Source: Corynebacterium sp. CNJ-954
GTDB taxonomy: Bacteria > Actinomycetota > Actinomycetes > Mycobacteriales > Mycobacteriaceae
DNA length: 64,000 nt
Direction of reading: 5' to 3'
Assembly (NCBI RefSeq): GCF_001942345.1
Contig: NZ_MKKI01000003.1
Location: 62,001 to 126,000, forward strand
Shown here one piece after another: positions 1 to 31,794 of this stretch. Within the stretch, counting starts at the first letter, position 1. Every line of letters begins with the position of its first letter. The translations under genes and the position numbers were made by a program. The notes under the pieces are model-generated. The model was not told the DNA's origin and did not search any database. It worked only from the letters and a program-made list of their open reading frames with translations.

Positions 1-988
1 TGGCGGACGCGTGCCCGAGCTGTTTTTGTACGACCTTCACGTTCGCCCCGGAGGACACCATGAGGCCCGCAGCGACATGGCGCAGCCCGTGCGGGGAGAG
101 CTTCGGGAAGGTGGGGTCTGCGGCCATGCGACGCTTCACAGCATGATGGAAGAAGCTGTTGCCGGTCAGCTTCAGCAGTGGCTCACCGTTGTTCCGGTGC
201 CACAGAAGATCGTCGGGAGACTTGCCCTTCACCCTGTCTTTAAGATCGTTCAGCACCTCGGCGGGCACCGCTACCGTCCGGTTCTCGCCAGCCTTCGTGG
301 TGCCGATCACGATCTTCTGCTTCACGGTCACAGCGTTGCGTGTGATGGAGATCCTGCGCCGTTTGAAGTCCACATCCTTCACCCTCAGCGCGGCGGCTTC
401 CCCCCACCGCAGCCCGACTGTGGCCAGCAGGTAGATAAGGTCGCCTTTTACGGAGCACTCGTCCACAAGATCCTTCACTTGATCGGCGGTGAGGTACACC
501 TTCACCCCCTTGCCCTTCTTCGGCAGGGTCACGTCCCGGGCGGGGTTCACGAGTAAGCGTTGTTGCTTCACGGCCATGTCGAGGATGTTAGCGAGGATCG
601 CGTGCACGCCAATGACGGTTGATGCGCCGCGTTCCATGCGGCTTACCCATGCTTGAACGTCAGCGTTGGTGACCTCGTTGACGCTCACTTCGCCCCACCG
701 GGGTTTGACGTGGACTCGCCAGCGCATGTCGGTGAGTTCGCGGGTGGAGGCTTTGAGGTGGGTTTGGTTTTTGAGCCATTCGTCTCCGAGTTGTCCGACC
801 GTGATCTTCCCGCTCTTAGGGTCGATCCAGCTGCCGGTGTTGCGTTCGATGAGGTTTTCGGCGGCCCAGTGCTCAGCTTGCTTCTTGGTCTGGAACCCGC
901 TTCGTGTGCGGCGTGTCCTAGTGGGGTCTACGTATTGGATGCGCCAGCGGGTGCCTTTGGCGGACTGGTACTTCTGCGGGGTGGGCAT
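1..988 (-). CDS. int: Tyrosine recombinase, prophage integrase (3' end cut by window)
   Basis: Site-specific recombinase that would integrate and excise the prophage at attB/attP. The leftward reading from ATG at 988 is open for 329 codons to the window edge. An Arm/SAM-like N-terminal half (first ~170 residues) is followed by the catalytic domain with the first catalytic Arg in GLRWGEAAAL, the HGLRH box and LGHAS near the edge; the catalytic Tyr lies beyond the window. The start sits 6 bases after the frameshift-corrected end of the lipoprotein gene, so the two are probably cotranscribed. It is the leftmost prophage gene and its 3' end points at the unseen attL, matching the tRNA-type attR at 59452-59513. 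Identification is firm; only the C terminus is missing. Confidence 0.93.
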   Translation of the reverse strand, partial: MPTPQKYQSAKGTRWRIQYVDPTRTRRTRSGFQTKKQAEHWAAENLIERNTGSWIDPKSGKITVGQLGDEWLKNQTHLKASTRELTDMRWRVHVKPRWGEVSVNEVTNADVQAWVSRMERGASTVIGVHAILANILDMAVKQQRLLVNPARDVTLPKKGKGVKVYLTADQVKDLVDECSVKGDLIYLLATVGLRWGEAAALRVKDVDFKRRRISITRNAVTVKQKIVIGTTKAGENRTVAVPAEVLNDLKDRVKGKSPDDLLWHRNNGEPLLKLTGNSFFHHAVKRRMAADPTFPKLSPHGLRHVAAGLMVSSGANVKVVQKQLGHASA

Positions 989-994
989 GACTTC

Positions 995-1824
995 CTACTG
1001 CTGTTGATCTAGCCACTGCTGCTGCAATTCGCCGGAAGACGGATTGGGGTTACCGTTAGCGTCATGTCCGTATCCGCATAGGTAGGCAGGGCACGTGCCA
1101 CCGTCTGCATACGGGATGGTTGCGGGGTCGGGTTCCGGCGGGGTTTGTCGTCCGGTCCCGTTGGTGGTCCTGAACTGGTCGAAGCACGCGGTAGTGAAGC
1201 CGCTTGTGCCGTCACTGTAGAACGTTGTTCCCGCTTCGTATATGGGGTCGAGGGCGCAGGTGGCGGTGGGGGCTGGCGCAGTCGCAGGCTCTGCTGCGGG
1301 GGTGGGTTGGGCGACTCGTCAGGTTCCGATTCTTCGTCTGCGTCGTCGCGGAACATGTCAGTGTCCCCTGTTGTCACGCGCCCGTCGAGTTCTTCAGCCA
1401 ACTTCGGGGCAAGCTCTAGGCTGTCGTTCTTGCCTAGGCCGCTGTTCAGGCTGATGCCTACGTTGTCGTAGGCCACCGATATGCCGTCTAGCCAGATTAC
1501 GGACTGTTCCCATTCCTTCCGCGCGTCTTCATCGAGAAAAACGAGGATGGATGAGTCGCGCTCGTTGATGTCCAGGTCCCACACGTCGGTTGCGACGGCC
1601 TCTTCGTTCTCGCCTTTGTACTCGACGTTTCCCCAGGGGGCGTCGAGCTTGTCGAGCGCGCCGGTGATGCGGTCGACGACGGGGCCATTGTCTTCTTCTT
1701 CGGCGGTTGTCGAGGTGGCAGGCGCTTGCGTGGCGCTGTCGGCAGTCTCGTCGCTTGCTCCGCAGGCAGCAAGTGTGAGTGTGGTGATCGCTGCGAGTGT
1801 AGCTGTGGTGATACGGCGGCTCAT
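995..1824 (-). CDS. Prophage lipoprotein, frameshifted
   Basis: Signal peptide with lipobox (LTLAAC, Cys about residue 21) and AGGAG ribosome site before the ATG, so a lipid-anchored envelope protein. The uninterrupted frame runs to 1009, but after about residue 170 it becomes low-complexity Pro/Arg/Ser text. Shifting back one base at the G5 run 1298-1302 (C5 in the gene) opens a convincing ending with two Cys pairs, a YADGGTCPAYLCGYG segment and a terminal PSSGELQQQW, stopping at 995-997. That ending looks like the C-terminal module of lipoproteins found beside integrases in corynebacterial prophages (my recollection, not searched). So the gene has lost one base, or the sequence has. Role unknown; superinfection exclusion is a guess from lipoprotein nature and lysogeny-block position. 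Confidence 0.75.
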
Positions 1825-1846
1825 GATGTTCTCCTGTGGTGAGGTT

Positions 1847-2203
1847 TTACTTGATGTGTCCGGCGCGGAAGAGTCCGGTACCGATCCGAGCTATTGCGAC
1901 GACGGCCAGGCCTAGGGTGGCGAAAGCCACTGAGGCGAAGAGGGCTGTGATCGCGTATGCGACTTCATCTTCACGTGAAACGGCTGCTCCGAGGATGGAT
2001 ATGACGACACCGATAGCACCGAGTGCGAATACCATGTGCCCGGTTGTTCCGATCCATCCGAAGGGGTCTTTTTGCGGGGCGGGGGTGTGATGTTCTGCGT
2101 TCGGGTTGTAGTACGGCTGGCCGTTGTTGTTCACGTATGGCCCGGGTGTCCACCGTGGGTTCTGTTGGGGGGTGTGGTCCTGCGGGCCGTTGGGGTGGCT
2201 CAT
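1847..2203 (-). CDS. Two-helix membrane protein of the lysogeny block
   Basis: 118 residues from ATG 2203, chosen over an upstream in-frame start because GAGGAG lies just before it. The N-terminal half is hydrophilic, rich in Pro, Asn, Gln and His; two hydrophobic segments follow (about residues 55-78 and 88-112), so it is likely an inner-membrane protein with a cytoplasmic N terminus. It leads a leftward operon with the lipoprotein and integrase. A GTTGA-N6-TCAAC operator candidate lies 67 bases upstream. No family recognised. Membrane protein plus lipoprotein next to int fits a lysogenic conversion or superinfection-exclusion role, which is inference only. Confidence 0.72.
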   Translation of the reverse strand: MSHPNGPQDHTPQQNPRWTPGPYVNNNGQPYYNPNAEHHTPAPQKDPFGWIGTTGHMVFALGAIGVVISILGAAVSREDEVAYAITALFASVAFATLGLAVVAIARIGTGLFRAGHIK

Positions 2204-2269
2204 GATGCTCTCCTCTGAGCGTCTGGGGCACCAGATAGGTGCTGTTTGGTAGACATCGTGCACCATAAA

Positions 2270-2285
2270 GTTGATATATGTCAAC
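2270..2285. promoter_or_regulatory. Operator candidate GTTGA-N6-TCAAC (left)
   Basis: Perfect inverted repeat of five-base arms with a six-base spacer. Read leftward it is GTTGACATATATCAAC, 15 of 16 bases identical to the site at 3123-3138 read rightward. A TTGACA -35-like hexamer lies inside, upstream of the leftward lysogeny operon. Probably bound by the repressor at 2596-2895. Confidence 0.6.
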
Positions 2286-2380
2286 CTCGGGGGAATGTTG
2301 GGGGTGGAAGTAACAGGCTCGGCGCTCGGTCGATAGTCCCTGCGCAAGGGCAAGATGAGGCGGCCTCCGGTGGCCTAAAA

Positions 2381-2396
2381 TCGAACACGTGTTCTA
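2381..2396. promoter_or_regulatory. LexA-type SOS box
   Basis: TCGAACACGTGTTCTA differs at one position from the actinobacterial LexA consensus TCGAAC-N4-GTTCGA and contains a perfect 12-base palindrome (2383-2394). It lies 67 bases upstream of the small rightward gene at 2464, and overlaps a weak -35 (2392-2397) set 17 bases from a TAGACT -10 (2415-2420). Confidence 0.7.
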
Positions 2397-2463
2397 ATTG
2401 TCCGGCTGGTCGTCTAGACTGCAAAACAAGCCACACGACCCCCGAACCGGAGAAGATCTGAAC

Positions 2464-2589
2464 ATGCCACACCCGTCCCCTACCCTTGCCCCCATAATTG
2501 ACGAAATCTTGAACCGCATCGCCCTACGTCCCCCCGTGGAGGAGGCTGCACCCCTGTTGCACCTCCTGCGCGACCTTGGCGCCTTGTAG
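2464..2589 (+). CDS. SOS-linked 41-residue protein, possible antirepressor
   Basis: Short rightward gene with a good ribosome site (GGAGAAG, 8 bases before ATG 2464), located after a near-consensus LexA box and a possible promoter. The peptide starts Pro-rich and continues as one amphipathic Leu/Ile-rich helix (residues 10-41). It ends 6 bases before the end of the repressor gene, which is read the opposite way. A DNA-damage-induced small gene facing the repressor recalls LexA-controlled antirepressors such as Tum of phage 186; that function is inference, since the peptide matches no family I know. Confidence 0.55.
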   Translation: MPHPSPTLAPIIDEILNRIALRPPVEEAAPLLHLLRDLGAL

Positions 2590-2595
2590 TGACGG

Positions 2596-2895
2596 CTACT
2601 TCCTAATGTCGTCCATGACTTCAGCAAGGACGCGGAGCTTCACTTCCTCTGGGGTCTCCTGGATGAACAAGGATTCGGCGGGGAGGTAGCCCGTCTCAAC
2701 TAGAGCCACAGCACCATTGGCACCGTATTCGTCGGAGATTTTTAGGACGTGCTGGGGGGAAAGCCGTCCGTTGTGCCGCTCCATGTACTTGCGCAAAGTC
2801 GCCTTCGATAGGCCAATGCGGCGTTCTGCTTCGCCTACGGTGACGCCTTCTCCGAGGCTTGCGATCCAGTCTGCGTGATCTTCGTAAAGGTTCAT
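2596..2895 (-). CDS. Immunity-type repressor, helix-turn-helix protein
   Basis: 99 residues if started at ATG 2895; a longer reading from 2931 adds 12 residues but would include the promoter. Residues about 15-45 hold a helix-turn-helix (GVTVGEAERRIGLSKATLRKY), followed by a section on sensing position and a short acidic C-terminal helix. Size and position between the leftward lysogeny genes and the rightward early operon fit a small actinophage immunity repressor or Cro-like regulator. A promoter at 2903-2931 puts transcription start at or next to the ATG, so the message should be leaderless. Likely targets are the GTTGA-N6-TCAAC repeats at 2270 and 3123. Confidence 0.75.
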   Translation of the reverse strand: MNLYEDHADWIASLGEGVTVGEAERRIGLSKATLRKYMERHNGRLSPQHVLKISDEYGANGAVALVETGYLPAESLFIQETPEEVKLRVLAEVMDDIRK

Positions 2896-2902
2896 ATCTA
2901 GC

Positions 2903-2931
2903 AGTATAAGCGTGTGGTTGCCTTTTGTCAC
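2903..2931 (-). promoter_or_regulatory. Promoter of the repressor gene (leaderless)
   Basis: On the minus strand: -35 GTGACA (2926-2931), 17-base spacer, -10 TATACT (2903-2908), then 7 bases to ATG 2895. Spacing is ideal and leaves no room for a ribosome site, so a leaderless message is predicted. Confidence 0.65.
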
Positions 2932-3046
2932 CCATGGGTTGTGGTAATGGGACGGGGGGAGTCAACTTGTCGGCGGGGCGGGGACGGCAAGACGCTCTGA
3001 GGTCCCCTGTGGGAGTGGTGTCGCATTGCCATCGCGGAGGTCTTTG

Positions 3047-3057
3047 GTCAACTTGAC
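3047..3057. promoter_or_regulatory. Palindrome GTCAACTTGAC
   Basis: Perfect 11-base palindrome with the same GTCAA/TTGAC half-sites as the two 16-base operators but a closer spacing; GTCAACTTG recurs at 2961-2969. May be a second class of regulator site between repressor and early genes. Confidence 0.4.
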
Positions 3058-3122
3058 GCAAAGTCGTAACACACACGTTGAACTGGGCGTATGCGACAGT
3101 AAAAACTTCTTTCAGATCGATG

Positions 3123-3138
3123 GTTGACAAATATCAAC
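3123..3138. promoter_or_regulatory. Operator candidate GTTGA-N6-TCAAC (right)
   Basis: Inverted repeat GTTGACAAATATCAAC, extended to 18 bases by flanking GG/CC. It contains TTGACA, a perfect -35 hexamer for a rightward promoter, so a bound repressor would block early transcription. A looser partner starts at 3146. Confidence 0.6.
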
Positions 3139-3504
3139 CCATGGTGTTGACTGTGATTCAGCGGCACGGAAGCCACCACCCAGACGGGGACGGAGCGCCG
3201 GAGGTTCGCAGGATATTTTCTCAACTTAGCCCCCAGAGGGACGAAGACAACCACCCGGTGTGGACAGAGCAGGAAGCCCGGGCAGGATCGGAGTCGAACC
3301 CACGGCGGGACGGACCCCATAGGGGGAAAGACCAGCGTAGATAGATATTTACCGCGCAGGTCCGATAGTTCGAGCGAGGTTGGCGCACACGTGGCGTCGA
3401 GTGAATCCCGGGAGGGGGCCTTGCCGTGACGGCTACGGATACCACGCGGGCGGTTAGTACACACCTTGTCATGGGTGTAGGGAAACACGCTCTAGAAGAA
3501 GTAA

Positions 3505-3525
3505 GGGGCCGGACGATACGGCCCC
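3505..3525 (+). terminator. Hairpin in the early leader
   Basis: GGGGCCG and CGGCCCC form a perfect seven-pair stem with a seven-base loop, about 50 bases before the first early gene. Only a weak T-rich tail (TCGTCTT) follows, so it may be an attenuator or processing site rather than a full terminator. Confidence 0.4.
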
Positions 3526-3577
3526 TCGTCTTGGCGGGTGCAGTCCTGAGGAGGGCGGATGGTTCGAGTCCATCGCA

Positions 3578-3832
3578 ATGACGCTGTGCACGTTCCGAGT
3601 CTGCCTGGAGGGGCAGGCGGCGGGCACTTGGTTTTTTGTTAGGAAGTATTTCGTGGAGGACTGGACGGAGGCGCAGGCGGACGCCGCTTTCGAGGAGATC
3701 AGTAGGCGGGTTCTTGCCTTGGCAGAGGTCGAGGATGACGCGGCGAGGGTCGCGGAAGGGAAGAAGATTGTGAAGATGATTTACGAGACTGAGGCCCGTT
3801 GTCAGTGGTCAGGTCTGGACAACAGGCAGTAA
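3578..3832 (+). CDS. Early hypothetical protein
   Basis: 84 residues, first gene of the rightward early operon. An aromatic N terminus (TWFFVRKYF about residues 17-25) leads into an amphipathic helical stretch. The GGAGG at 3550 is too far upstream for ATG 3578 but ideal for a competing ATG at 3559, which opens only 27 codons in another frame; that short frame could be a leader peptide. No family recognised. Coding nature is supported by composition and position. Confidence 0.55.
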   Translation: MTLCTFRVCLEGQAAGTWFFVRKYFVEDWTEAQADAAFEEISRRVLALAEVEDDAARVAEGKKIVKMIYETEARCQWSGLDNRQ

Positions 3833-26097: not shown

Positions 26098-26178
26098 CTG
26101 CCGATATTGAGCGCGTGCGACGCTCCACAACCCCCGCTCGCACATTATGCGGGGCATATAACCATGCAAGGAGATAGC

Positions 26179-29100
26179 TTGACTGACACCACATACGAAA
26201 ACCTCAACGCCGAAGTGAACCTCCTCGGCCCCGACGGAAAACTGCAACTCCACAAAGACCACGAAGCCGCCCGCGCCTACCACATCGAACACGTCAACCA
26301 GAACACCGTGTTCTTCCACGACCTCGAAGAAAAAACCCGCTACCTCGTGGACAACAACCTGTGGGACCGGGAAACCGTCGAAACGTTCGAACCGTACCAG
26401 TTCAAGGCACTGTTCAAGCAGGCGTACAAGCACAAGGCCAGGTTCTCGTCCTACCTCGGCGCGGTGAAGAACTACATGTCTTACGCGCTGAAGACGGAGG
26501 ACGGTCAGCGGTACTACGAGCGGTACGAGGACCGTGTAGTGATGACCGCTATCGACGTGTCGGGCGGAGACTATCAGCTCGCGTCGGATCTCGTGGACGC
26601 GATCATCACGGGACGGTTCCAGCCAGCAACACCAACGTTCCTCAACGCGGGGCGCGCACGCGGCGGGGAGCGAGTGTCGTGCTTCCTGCTGGACGCACAG
26701 GACAATATGGAATCCATCGGCCGCCTCCAGAACAGCGCCTTGCAGCTATCAAAGCGAGGCGGGGGAGTGGGAATCAACCTCACGAACCTCCGAGAGTCTG
26801 GCGCTCCGATTCAAGATGTTCCCGGACAGTCGTCGGGCCTCGTCCCGGTGATGAAGATCCTCGAAACAGAGTTCCGGTACGCGAACCAGCTTGGGCAGCG
26901 TCAGGGCGCGGGTGCAGTGTACGTGTCGGCGCACCATCCCGACATCCTCCAAGTCCTCGACACGAAAAAGGAGAACGCGGACGAGGCAATCCGCATCAAG
27001 ACGCTCAGTATCGGCGTGGTCGTCCCCGACATCACGTTCGAGCTGGCGAAGGCTAACGACGACATGTACCTGTTCAGCCCCTACGACGTGGAACGAGTCG
27101 AAGGGAAGCCTTTTAGCGAGTGTGACATCACCGCCCGATACCGCGACTGGGTGGATGACGACCGGATCACGAAGCGGAAGATCAACGCACGGTCACTGTT
27201 CGCTCGTATCGCGGAAGTGCAGTTCGAATCCGGATACCCGTACCTTTTATTCTCTGATGTGGCGTCACGCGCCAACCCGATGAAGCACGTTGGACGAATC
27301 CAGATGTCCAACCTCTGCGTGGCGCCTGAAACGCTTCTGCTTACCCGGTCAGGCAATGTTCCGATTGCGGGACTGGCGGGTCAGGACGTTGAAGTGTGGA
27401 ACGGCGAAGAATGGTCACTGTCCAGGGTTGAGCAGACAGGTCAGGACCAATCACTAATCACCGTCGATTTTGACAACGGTGCGTCGATGGATGTCACTCC
27501 GTACCACAAGTTCTACGTCAAGACAGGGTACGGAAACCGCAAGGTCGTTGAGACCCGAGCAGGTGAACTGAAGCCAGGAGACATGATCGACAAGTTCAGC
27601 CTGCCCGTGGTGGACAACGCGGGGGCGCCCGACTTCCCATACGCCTACACGGCCGGACTCCACAGCGCAGACGGCACCTACGGGGTCAACGGAGCGCCAA
27701 TACTCCGCCTCTACCCCGGAAAGACCCACCTGGGCGATCATATCGAGTACAAGTCCAGCTCGCTAAAGCCAGATGCGATCGGAAGGGTTTCATACGTGCT
27801 TCACGAGGAAACCCCTAGGAAGTACGTCGTCCCGGACTCCTCCTACTCATTGAAGAGTCGTCTGGAATGGCTTGCAGGAATGCTAGATGGAGACGGTTGG
27901 GGCAATGGGAAGGTCGGTCTTCAGATCGGGTCGATCCACCCCGAGTTCCTTGAGGATATCCGCATCATGCTCACTGAGATGGGAGTGTCGTCACGGTGGA
28001 AGAAGGTGCGGGACGCCGGGAGGACAAGGTTCAAGCCAGATCAGAAGGAGTACGAGACGCAGACTGCGTATCGCCTCATCATTAGTGGAACCGAGTCGCA
28101 GACTCTCTGCAAGCTCGGACTCCCCACCCATAGGGTCATCGTGGAGGAAGTGGACCATCAGCGTGCCGCCAACGGATATATCAGAGTCGAAAGCATTACC
28201 GATGAAGGTCGTGTTGACGACACGTATTGTCTGAACGAGCCGAAGCGACACAAGGTGATCTTCAACGGAGTGCAGACCGGCAACTGTTCCGAGATCATGC
28301 AGGTGCAAACCCCCTCGGTGTTGAACGATGACCTGTCGTACAAGACGGTCGGGCATGACATCTCCTGCAACCTCGGATCGTTCAACATGCGGAAGATGCT
28401 GGACTTGTCCACGGACGAGTTCACGGACACGGTGATTGCCGCAACCCGGGCGCTGGATCAGGTGTCACGCACGACGAGTATTGATTCGGTGCCGTCTGTT
28501 CGCAAGGGTAACGAGGACTCGCACAGTATCGGCCTGGGGCAGATGAACTGGCACGGTGCGTTGGGTGACCTAGGGATCGAATACGGGTCGCCGGAGTCGT
28601 TGCGGATACTGGACCGGTACATGGCGCGTGTGACGTGGGCGGCGATGCTCGCTAGTACGCAGTTGGCGAAGGAGTACGGTCAGCACGCCTGGTTTGACGG
28701 GTGCGAGTACGACACAGGGGAGTGGTTCGAGCGTGTGGCGTACCCGAAGTGCGATGAGTTCGGGGACGATCTGACGATCCTCGGGGATCTGACCGCGCCG
28801 ACGCGTGCGGAGTGGGACATGCTGCGGATCGAGGTGAGCAGGTATGGGATGGCGAATGCGTATTTGCAGGCGATTCCGCCGACCGGTTCGATCTCGTACA
28901 TCAACCATTCCACGTCAAGCATTCACCCGGTTCCCTCCGGGGTCGAGATCCGCAAGGAGGGCAAGCTCGGTCGCGTGTACTACCCGCAGCCGCACCTGAC
29001 GAACGAGAACGCGCACCTGTTCCAGTCAGCATCAACGATCGGCTACAAGAAGCTCGTGGACACGTATGCGGTGTCGCAGCATTGGGTGGATCAGGGGCAG

Positions 29101-29277
29101 TCGATGACGGGGTTCTTCACGGATGAGGCGACGACGAGGGATTTGAACAAGTTCTATATCTACGCGTGGTCGAGGGGCATTAAGTCGATTTACTACGTGA
29201 GGTTGCAGCAGCCTGCTATGGCGGGCACGGCGGTTGAGGGTACTGCTGCGGGGTTCTGTGAGTCGTGTGCACTTTAG
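26179..29277 (+). CDS. nrdE: Class Ib ribonucleotide reductase large subunit with intein
   Basis: 1032 residues from TTG 26179 (AAGGAG 5 bases upstream; an earlier in-frame start lacks a site). The protein reduces ribonucleotides to deoxyribonucleotides. Key residues: RVSC (Cys about 168), the active-site NL-C-S-E, ISCNLGS, and a C-terminal CESC redox pair. A 323-residue intein (27316-28284) splits the protein immediately before the catalytic Cys of NLCSE. After splicing the enzyme would have about 709 residues, normal for NrdE. NrdH and NrdI genes are elsewhere in the phage; no NrdF is visible, so the host radical subunit is presumably borrowed. Confidence 0.93.
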   Translation: MTDTTYENLNAEVNLLGPDGKLQLHKDHEAARAYHIEHVNQNTVFFHDLEEKTRYLVDNNLWDRETVETFEPYQFKALFKQAYKHKARFSSYLGAVKNYMSYALKTEDGQRYYERYEDRVVMTAIDVSGGDYQLASDLVDAIITGRFQPATPTFLNAGRARGGERVSCFLLDAQDNMESIGRLQNSALQLSKRGGGVGINLTNLRESGAPIQDVPGQSSGLVPVMKILETEFRYANQLGQRQGAGAVYVSAHHPDILQVLDTKKENADEAIRIKTLSIGVVVPDITFELAKANDDMYLFSPYDVERVEGKPFSECDITARYRDWVDDDRITKRKINARSLFARIAEVQFESGYPYLLFSDVASRANPMKHVGRIQMSNLCVAPETLLLTRSGNVPIAGLAGQDVEVWNGEEWSLSRVEQTGQDQSLITVDFDNGASMDVTPYHKFYVKTGYGNRKVVETRAGELKPGDMIDKFSLPVVDNAGAPDFPYAYTAGLHSADGTYGVNGAPILRLYPGKTHLGDHIEYKSSSLKPDAIGRVSYVLHEETPRKYVVPDSSYSLKSRLEWLAGMLDGDGWGNGKVGLQIGSIHPEFLEDIRIMLTEMGVSSRWKKVRDAGRTRFKPDQKEYETQTAYRLIISGTESQTLCKLGLPTHRVIVEEVDHQRAANGYIRVESITDEGRVDDTYCLNEPKRHKVIFNGVQTGNCSEIMQVQTPSVLNDDLSYKTVGHDISCNLGSFNMRKMLDLSTDEFTDTVIAATRALDQVSRTTSIDSVPSVRKGNEDSHSIGLGQMNWHGALGDLGIEYGSPESLRILDRYMARVTWAAMLASTQLAKEYGQHAWFDGCEYDTGEWFERVAYPKCDEFGDDLTILGDLTAPTRAEWDMLRIEVSRYGMANAYLQAIPPTGSISYINHSTSSIHPVPSGVEIRKEGKLGRVYYPQPHLTNENAHLFQSASTIGYKKLVDTYAVSQHWVDQGQSMTGFFTDEATTRDLNKFYIYAWSRGIKSIYYVRLQQPAMAGTAVEGTAAGFCESCAL
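27316..28284 (+). other. Intein with LAGLIDADG homing endonuclease in nrdE
   Basis: Starts with Cys (CVAPETLLLTRSG) after extein residues SNL and ends ...VIFNGVQTGN before Cys-Ser-Glu. Splicing blocks A (residues 1-13), B and F are present; the penultimate residue is Gly rather than the usual His. Two dodecapeptide motifs, AGLHSADG and LAGMLDGDG, mark a DOD endonuclease. The +1 nucleophile is the enzyme's own catalytic thiol, so without splicing no active reductase can form. Confidence 0.9.
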
Positions 29278-30818: not shown

Positions 30819-30891
30819 ACTTCTATAGCCCAACGGTAGAGGCAGCGGATTCAAGTCCCGTTAAGTGCAGGTTCGAATCCTGCTAGAAGTA
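30819..30891 (+). tRNA. tRNA with CAA anticodon (Leu by position)
   Basis: ACTTCTA/TAGAAGT acceptor (seven pairs), TA, D arm GCC-GGC, anticodon loop TTCAAGT, variable TAAGT, perfect T arm GCAGG-TTCGAAT-CCTGC, discriminator A. CAA would read UUG Leu, but the short variable loop is not that of a Leu tRNA and the anticodon stem has one mismatch. Confidence 0.6.
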
Positions 30892-31112
30892 CGGTTTCAG
30901 TCAGCGTGGTCATGCTCTCTGAAACGACCGGCACCGGGCTACTGGCAGGTGTCGGCATTGCTCCTGACTGTCTCCGGATTGGTCAGGTTTTGAAGAGGTC
31001 GGGATACCCTCGCGGGTTGCTCCGCAAAATGTAACAGCCGTGGAAACACACTCAGCGATCCCTGCCCTTCGGGGGCATATCGGAGGCCCACGGAAGCCCC
31101 GGACGCGGGGCA

Positions 31113-31509: not shown

Positions 31510-31580
31510 TGCTCCGTCGTCTAGCGGCAGGACGCCTGGCCCTGAACCAGGTAACCGAGGTTCGAATCCTTGCGGAGCAG
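31510..31580 (+). tRNA. tRNA-Gln (CTG)
   Basis: Acceptor TGCTCCG/CGGAGCA with the U1-A72 pair and G73 typical of Gln, D arm, perfect anticodon stem CCTGG/CCAGG with loop CCCTGAA (anticodon CTG), five-base variable loop, T arm CGAGG-TTCGAAT-CCTTG. Followed by CC, so CCA is only partly encoded. Confidence 0.85.
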
Positions 31581-31794
31581 CCGGATCATCCGAAAGAACA
31601 CCACTTCCGAATGGTCCATCAACGAACCCTGCGTTACGACGTGGGGAAAGGCGGCTGACGGTGTTCTCGCCGGACGACGAGACCCGCCAACGCCAAAAAA
31701 CTTGGCCCCCGTTGATGCGTGGGGAAGTGCTCGTGGACGCAGCCGGATGACTGTGCACCACGACGCGCGACAAACAACAACAAGAGGAGTGTCC

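Follow-up and report, generated by a model that had tools for sequence, protein, structure and literature searches.

A LexA-type box and a 41-codon gene beside a prophage repressor of Corynebacterium: a candidate SOS-controlled antirepressor

Background

How could a prophage register damage to the DNA of its host when its repressor carries no domain for self-cleavage? The question is raised by a locus of Corynebacterium sp. CNJ-954, in which a 41-codon gene preceded by a site resembling the LexA (SOS) box converges on the gene of such a repressor. The window considered here is the whole stretch of DNA that was analysed, 64,000 nucleotides at positions 62001-126000 of contig C3 (NZ_MKKI01000003.1), a contig of 146 kb in a genome of 3.77 Mb and 46 contigs. 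The prophage is also present in IMG/VR as a provirus of 59,366 bp. Feature coordinates are those of the window.

Switches of a related kind have been described in other phages. According to the available text of PMC3121763, Tum of coliphage 186, AntC of N15, and GftA, GfoA and FsoA of the Gifsy and Fels-1 prophages are LexA-controlled small proteins which inactivate phage repressors that are not self-cleaved. At the level of titles and abstract openings, the literature described no LexA-controlled antirepressor in a Corynebacterium phage. The reading developed below, to which a probability of roughly one half is assigned, is that the 41-codon gene encodes a LexA-controlled antirepressor peptide which disables the 99-aa repressor upon DNA damage, likely in replacement of an ImmA-type peptidase.

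Organisation of the locus

From left to right, the locus comprises a tyrosine integrase gene (2-988, minus strand, running past the left end of the window), a lipoprotein-like ORF (1009-1824, minus), a small ORF (1847-2203, minus), the LexA box, the 41-codon gene (plus), the repressor gene (minus) and early genes which run rightward from position 3578 (plus). The end portion of the lipoprotein-like ORF, past approximately position 1310, is unlike natural protein, which may reflect a frame change, either in the sequence or in the gene itself. The prophage also carries a ribonucleotide-reductase-like ORF of 1056 aa (26107-29277, plus), with an insert which, judged by eye, resembles an intein, and two tRNA genes, tRNA-Leu (CAA; 30819-30892, plus) and tRNA-Gln (CTG; 31510-31582, plus). 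An Rfam scan of positions 1800-3700 returned no RNA element at E ≤ 0.1.

LexA box and putative promoter

The site TCGAACACGTGTTCTA (2381-2396, plus strand) is located in the 260-bp intergenic gap 2204-2463 and, in agreement with the preliminary description of this locus, which had called it an SOS box, differs from TCGAACN4GTTCGA at one base. Chance rates were derived from a first-order Markov model, both for that pattern at ≤1 mismatch and for the stricter TCGAACANNTGTTCGA, which we take to be the form following the LexA consensus of Corynebacterium glutamicum. The expected numbers are 0.26 and 0.015 sites per 64 kb, respectively, and about 0.001 and 0.00006 in the gap; throughout contig C3, the box is the sole place at ≤1 mismatch. 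The host encodes RecA as well as a LexA with an S24 domain, and similar boxes are found upstream of lexA (99 nt), recA (130 nt) and an ORF adjoining an ImuB-type polymerase gene (25 nt). The lexA and recA boxes recur letter-identical in G202, a genome of the same genus, in a comparison of the box letters alone.

SOS-box-like sites ending in TCTA were recorded at C19:513, C22:618, C42:124076, C2:166 and C15:165, several of them close to contig starts. The ORFs behind those on C19 and C22 resemble each other, match nothing in Pfam and may form a repeated family under SOS control.

Upstream of the 41-codon gene, a possible -10 element, TAGACT (2415-2420, plus), and a possible -35 element overlapping the LexA box (approximately 2392-2397, plus) can be placed by eye; the former is absent from the calls of a sigma-70 promoter scan, which called nothing at the box. 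This result and the one mismatch are compatible with the box being a chance near-match unused by LexA, in which case the gene would be otherwise controlled or without a role in induction. The whole-genome scan points in the same direction: it gave 29 forward rows for the LexA pattern and 11 for a reversed control pattern, hence isolated near-matches can occur by chance. Such an origin is nevertheless judged improbable, in view of the very low expectation for the gap, the occurrence of TCTA-ending sites elsewhere in the genome, and the SOS-box match with half-site GTTCTA which precedes C. glutamicum sigH in the available text of PMC3489674. Since the box is rare and unique on its contig, resembles the boxes of the host, and has a counterpart for its half-site in C. 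glutamicum, LexA control of the 41-codon gene appears likely, with considerable confidence for a prediction from sequence.

The 41-codon gene and its product

The gene (2464-2589, plus) extends from ATG 2464 to the stop codon TAG (2587-2589). Earlier claims of a short gene with a good ribosome site, ending 6 bases from the oppositely oriented repressor gene, proved accurate: GGAGAAG (2449-2455, plus), as read from the sequence, precedes the start, and the gap 2590-2595 separates the two stop codons. The GC content at the three codon positions (0.73/0.44/0.73) is like that of four compared phage genes and unlike that of the 22 in-frame codons upstream of the ATG (0.55/0.50/0.64). Among 5.8 billion proteins two relatives of the peptide were found, each exactly 41 aa long and 93% and 85% identical, and a profile search brought no further ones. 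This conservation is about that of the three close relatives of the repressor (87-94%).

Wider searches for the peptide returned little. In 100 genomes, 22 others gave hits at E ≤ 1 (best 0.078), none of them convincing; a profile run against 241 further genomes from the genus produced one unconvincing hit of 18 residues in G229 (E 0.005). The genome-contig collection yielded none, IMG/VR the same prophage only, and the phage records just two chance hits at E 5. No match to the 41-aa query was obtained in Pfam and PHROGs (E ≤ 0.1) or in PADLOC. The structure model, built on an alignment of three sequences, has two helices, at residues 9-21 and 25-40, with a mean pLDDT of 76; compared with PDB structures it gave zero matches, while the sequence gave six PDB hits, all at E 1 or worse.

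No membrane segment is expected, as the highest hydrophobicity score of any 19-residue stretch is only 0.64, and a membrane-acting peptide was ruled out on this ground. Mimicry of the C-terminal helix of the repressor was also discarded, as 566 of 2000 shuffles reached the best local score.

The lack of a match to known families is in keeping with an SOS-induced peptide which spares the repressor and targets the host or a different phage step, e.g. cell division or excision. Small cell-division inhibitors do occur among SOS genes, SidA of Caulobacter being one. Such a target is considered unlikely here: the gene adjoins the repressor gene, no other LexA-controlled candidate was found in the prophage, and its product is not expected to have a membrane segment.

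It is also conceivable that the LexA-driven transcript itself silences the repressor, by convergent antisense or interference, and possibly reads into the rightward early genes. The 6-base distance between the gene ends agrees with this, as does the plus strand at 2590-3577, in which a simple consensus scan found no terminator-like site. In the relatives, however, the product has the same length of exactly 41 aa and is 85-93% identical, the codon GC of the gene is of the coding type, and the Gifsy equivalent is a protein whose action is abolished by a frameshift, according to the available text of PMC3121763. A transcript acting on its own is hence judged improbable.

The repressor, its relatives and its operators

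The repressor gene (2596-2895, minus; ATG 2893-2895, stop 2596-2598) encodes 99 aa without a long tail, in which only sub-threshold HTH matches were found. A domain scan of the product bore out the claim that it has no peptidase domain, including the S24 domain of self-cleaving CI/LexA-type repressors. A predicted promoter, GTGACA-17-TATACT (2903-2931, minus), was found in a scan with one site observed vs 0.6 expected in shuffles; because it would put the transcription start at the ATG, the repressor mRNA is predicted to be leaderless.

The protein is a distant relative of repressors which precede an HExxH/M78 gene. Its longer relatives measure 149-176 aa vs 99 aa here, and an HExxH (ImmA/IrrE-type) gene lies downstream in all 19 long-tailed relatives examined, with 17 of the 19 matching Peptidase_M78. 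This peptidase, which presumably cuts the long repressor tail, is encoded in the slot filled here by the 41-codon gene. Of the 13 phage records in which a repressor relative was found, 10 are Corynebacterium phages; a search of the genome-contig collection returned no repressor relatives.

The nearest repressor relative in the genus, L306 of genome G202 (G202:C20), is 47% identical and 96 aa long, and its gene converges on an integrase gene at a distance of about 90 bases. Neither a peptidase within 1.4 kb downstream of it nor a LexA box anywhere on that contig was found, a combination which lends some weight to a chance origin of the box in the present prophage. Furthermore, Gordonia phage Aleemily has a short repressor of 95 aa without an adjoining peptidase. 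Since both have short repressors with no peptidase next to them, a short repressor does not imply a switch by LexA and a peptide; nor is the exchange of a peptidase for a box a rule, given that the G202 repressor is short yet has neither.

Two likely operators flank the repressor region, GTTGATATATGTCAAC on the integrase side (2270-2285) and GTTGACAAATATCAAC on the early-gene side (3123-3138), which match at 15 of 16 bases when one of them is read in the inverse orientation. None of 1000 dinucleotide shuffles of both gaps reached 15 (the largest value being 12), with a palindrome threshold that had been loosened after a stricter setting missed the observed pair. The pattern used for the operator search was derived from these first two copies, and the shuffles are the sole real test of the pairing. 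In the 64 kb, no copies were found beyond these two and a site with three mismatches (2917-2932), a weaker possible operator covering the -35 of the repressor promoter; as chance would give about one row at three mismatches, that site proves nothing alone. The repressor would bind the two palindromes, as far as their sequence and position can indicate.

Discussion

A search of contig C3 for four kinds of domain known from sensors or antirepressors, S24, M78, ANT and Bro-N, gave no match, which leaves the LexA box as the sole candidate found in the prophage for a damage sensor. Elsewhere in the genome, M78 occurs on C11 and C43, S24 on C11 and C17 only, and ANT on C11; Bro-N has zero matches anywhere in the host genome. 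Positions ~242390-244454 of C11 (L067, L317, L321) hold a second phage-type module, in which an M78 gene follows the gene of a related repressor and an ANT domain lies near. The host may be a polylysogen whose prophages use two kinds of damage switch.

If the antirepressor reading is correct, the repressor would sit in the lysogen on the operators 2270-2285 and 3123-3138, and perhaps more weakly on its own promoter, while LexA would shut the peptide promoter through the box overlapping the likely -35. Upon DNA damage, LexA would be cleaved in a RecA-driven manner and leave this promoter free; the two-helix peptide would then attach to the repressor, perhaps to the C-terminal helix of the latter, with loss of repression on both sides. 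What the preliminary description had proposed as a LexA-controlled antirepressor is thus upheld in its circumstantial part, namely the promoter-like location of the box, the conservation of the 41-aa product, the lack of a peptidase domain in the repressor and the finding of no other sensor of the four kinds on the contig; the action of the peptide on the repressor is predicted from these features, and an antirepressor function is given even odds.

The prophage switch would by analogy work like those of Tum, AntC and GftA, and LexA-controlled antirepressors are already known as a type of switch. The likeness lies in the LexA box before a small gene and in a repressor without a self-cleavage domain. 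LexA-controlled antirepressors need not share sequence, and no Pfam or PHROGs family is common to the peptide and these proteins; moreover, the 41-codon gene converges on the repressor gene and its antirepressor role is a predicted one. In size, too, the peptide differs, with 41 aa against 146 aa for Tum and about half of that for GftA and GfoA in the available text of PMC3121763.

The distant kinship of the repressor with those that precede an HExxH/M78 gene may link the module to ImmR-ImmA. The prophage module is nonetheless not an ImmR-ImmA system, since two defining features are missing: there is no M78 gene by the repressor or on the contig, and the repressor has 99 aa and no long tail. 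In historical terms, the LexA-peptide arrangement probably took the place of the ImmA-type peptidase, tail and peptidase both being missing here. A combined scenario is put forward tentatively, with odds nearer one in three: an ImmR-type repressor would have lost its ImmA-cut tail, the slot of the ImmA gene would have passed to the LexA-controlled two-helix peptide of 41 aa, which pries the repressor apart, and antisense silencing by the convergent transcript would contribute as well.

Other small phage proteins also steer the choice between lysis and lysogeny, such as those of the TF-smORF modules, Qtip, MOR and AimX (PMC10432266, PMC11323111), but in the available text of these sources what drives them is a phage factor or a quorum signal and not a LexA box; their sizes are 79 aa for Qtip, 72 for MOR and 51 for AimX (PMC11323111). 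No sequence relation of the module to the SinR-SinI pair of Bacillus was found; the structural score reflects the common HTH fold only, and the peptide model found no matching chain. On a broader scale, scans of IMG/VR for LexA-box genes converging on an HTH gene returned at least 235 loci, 33 geometric candidates among them; the 8 of these 33 which passed a composition and length filter were viewed by eye, and none was an evident repressor.

Conclusions

Should the joint reading of an exchanged peptidase hold, the peptide would be among the smallest phage antirepressors, placed under LexA control in an actinobacterial phage, and a 41-aa inhibitor would be small enough for direct mapping. It would also mean that phages rewire their damage sensing by swapping the input, a peptidase or a LexA-controlled peptide, with the repressor fold kept. 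Given the ImmA-type module on another contig, this cell may harbour two prophages which respond to the same damage by way of different sensors, and the presence of two sensor types in one cell would make the order and strength of their induction testable.
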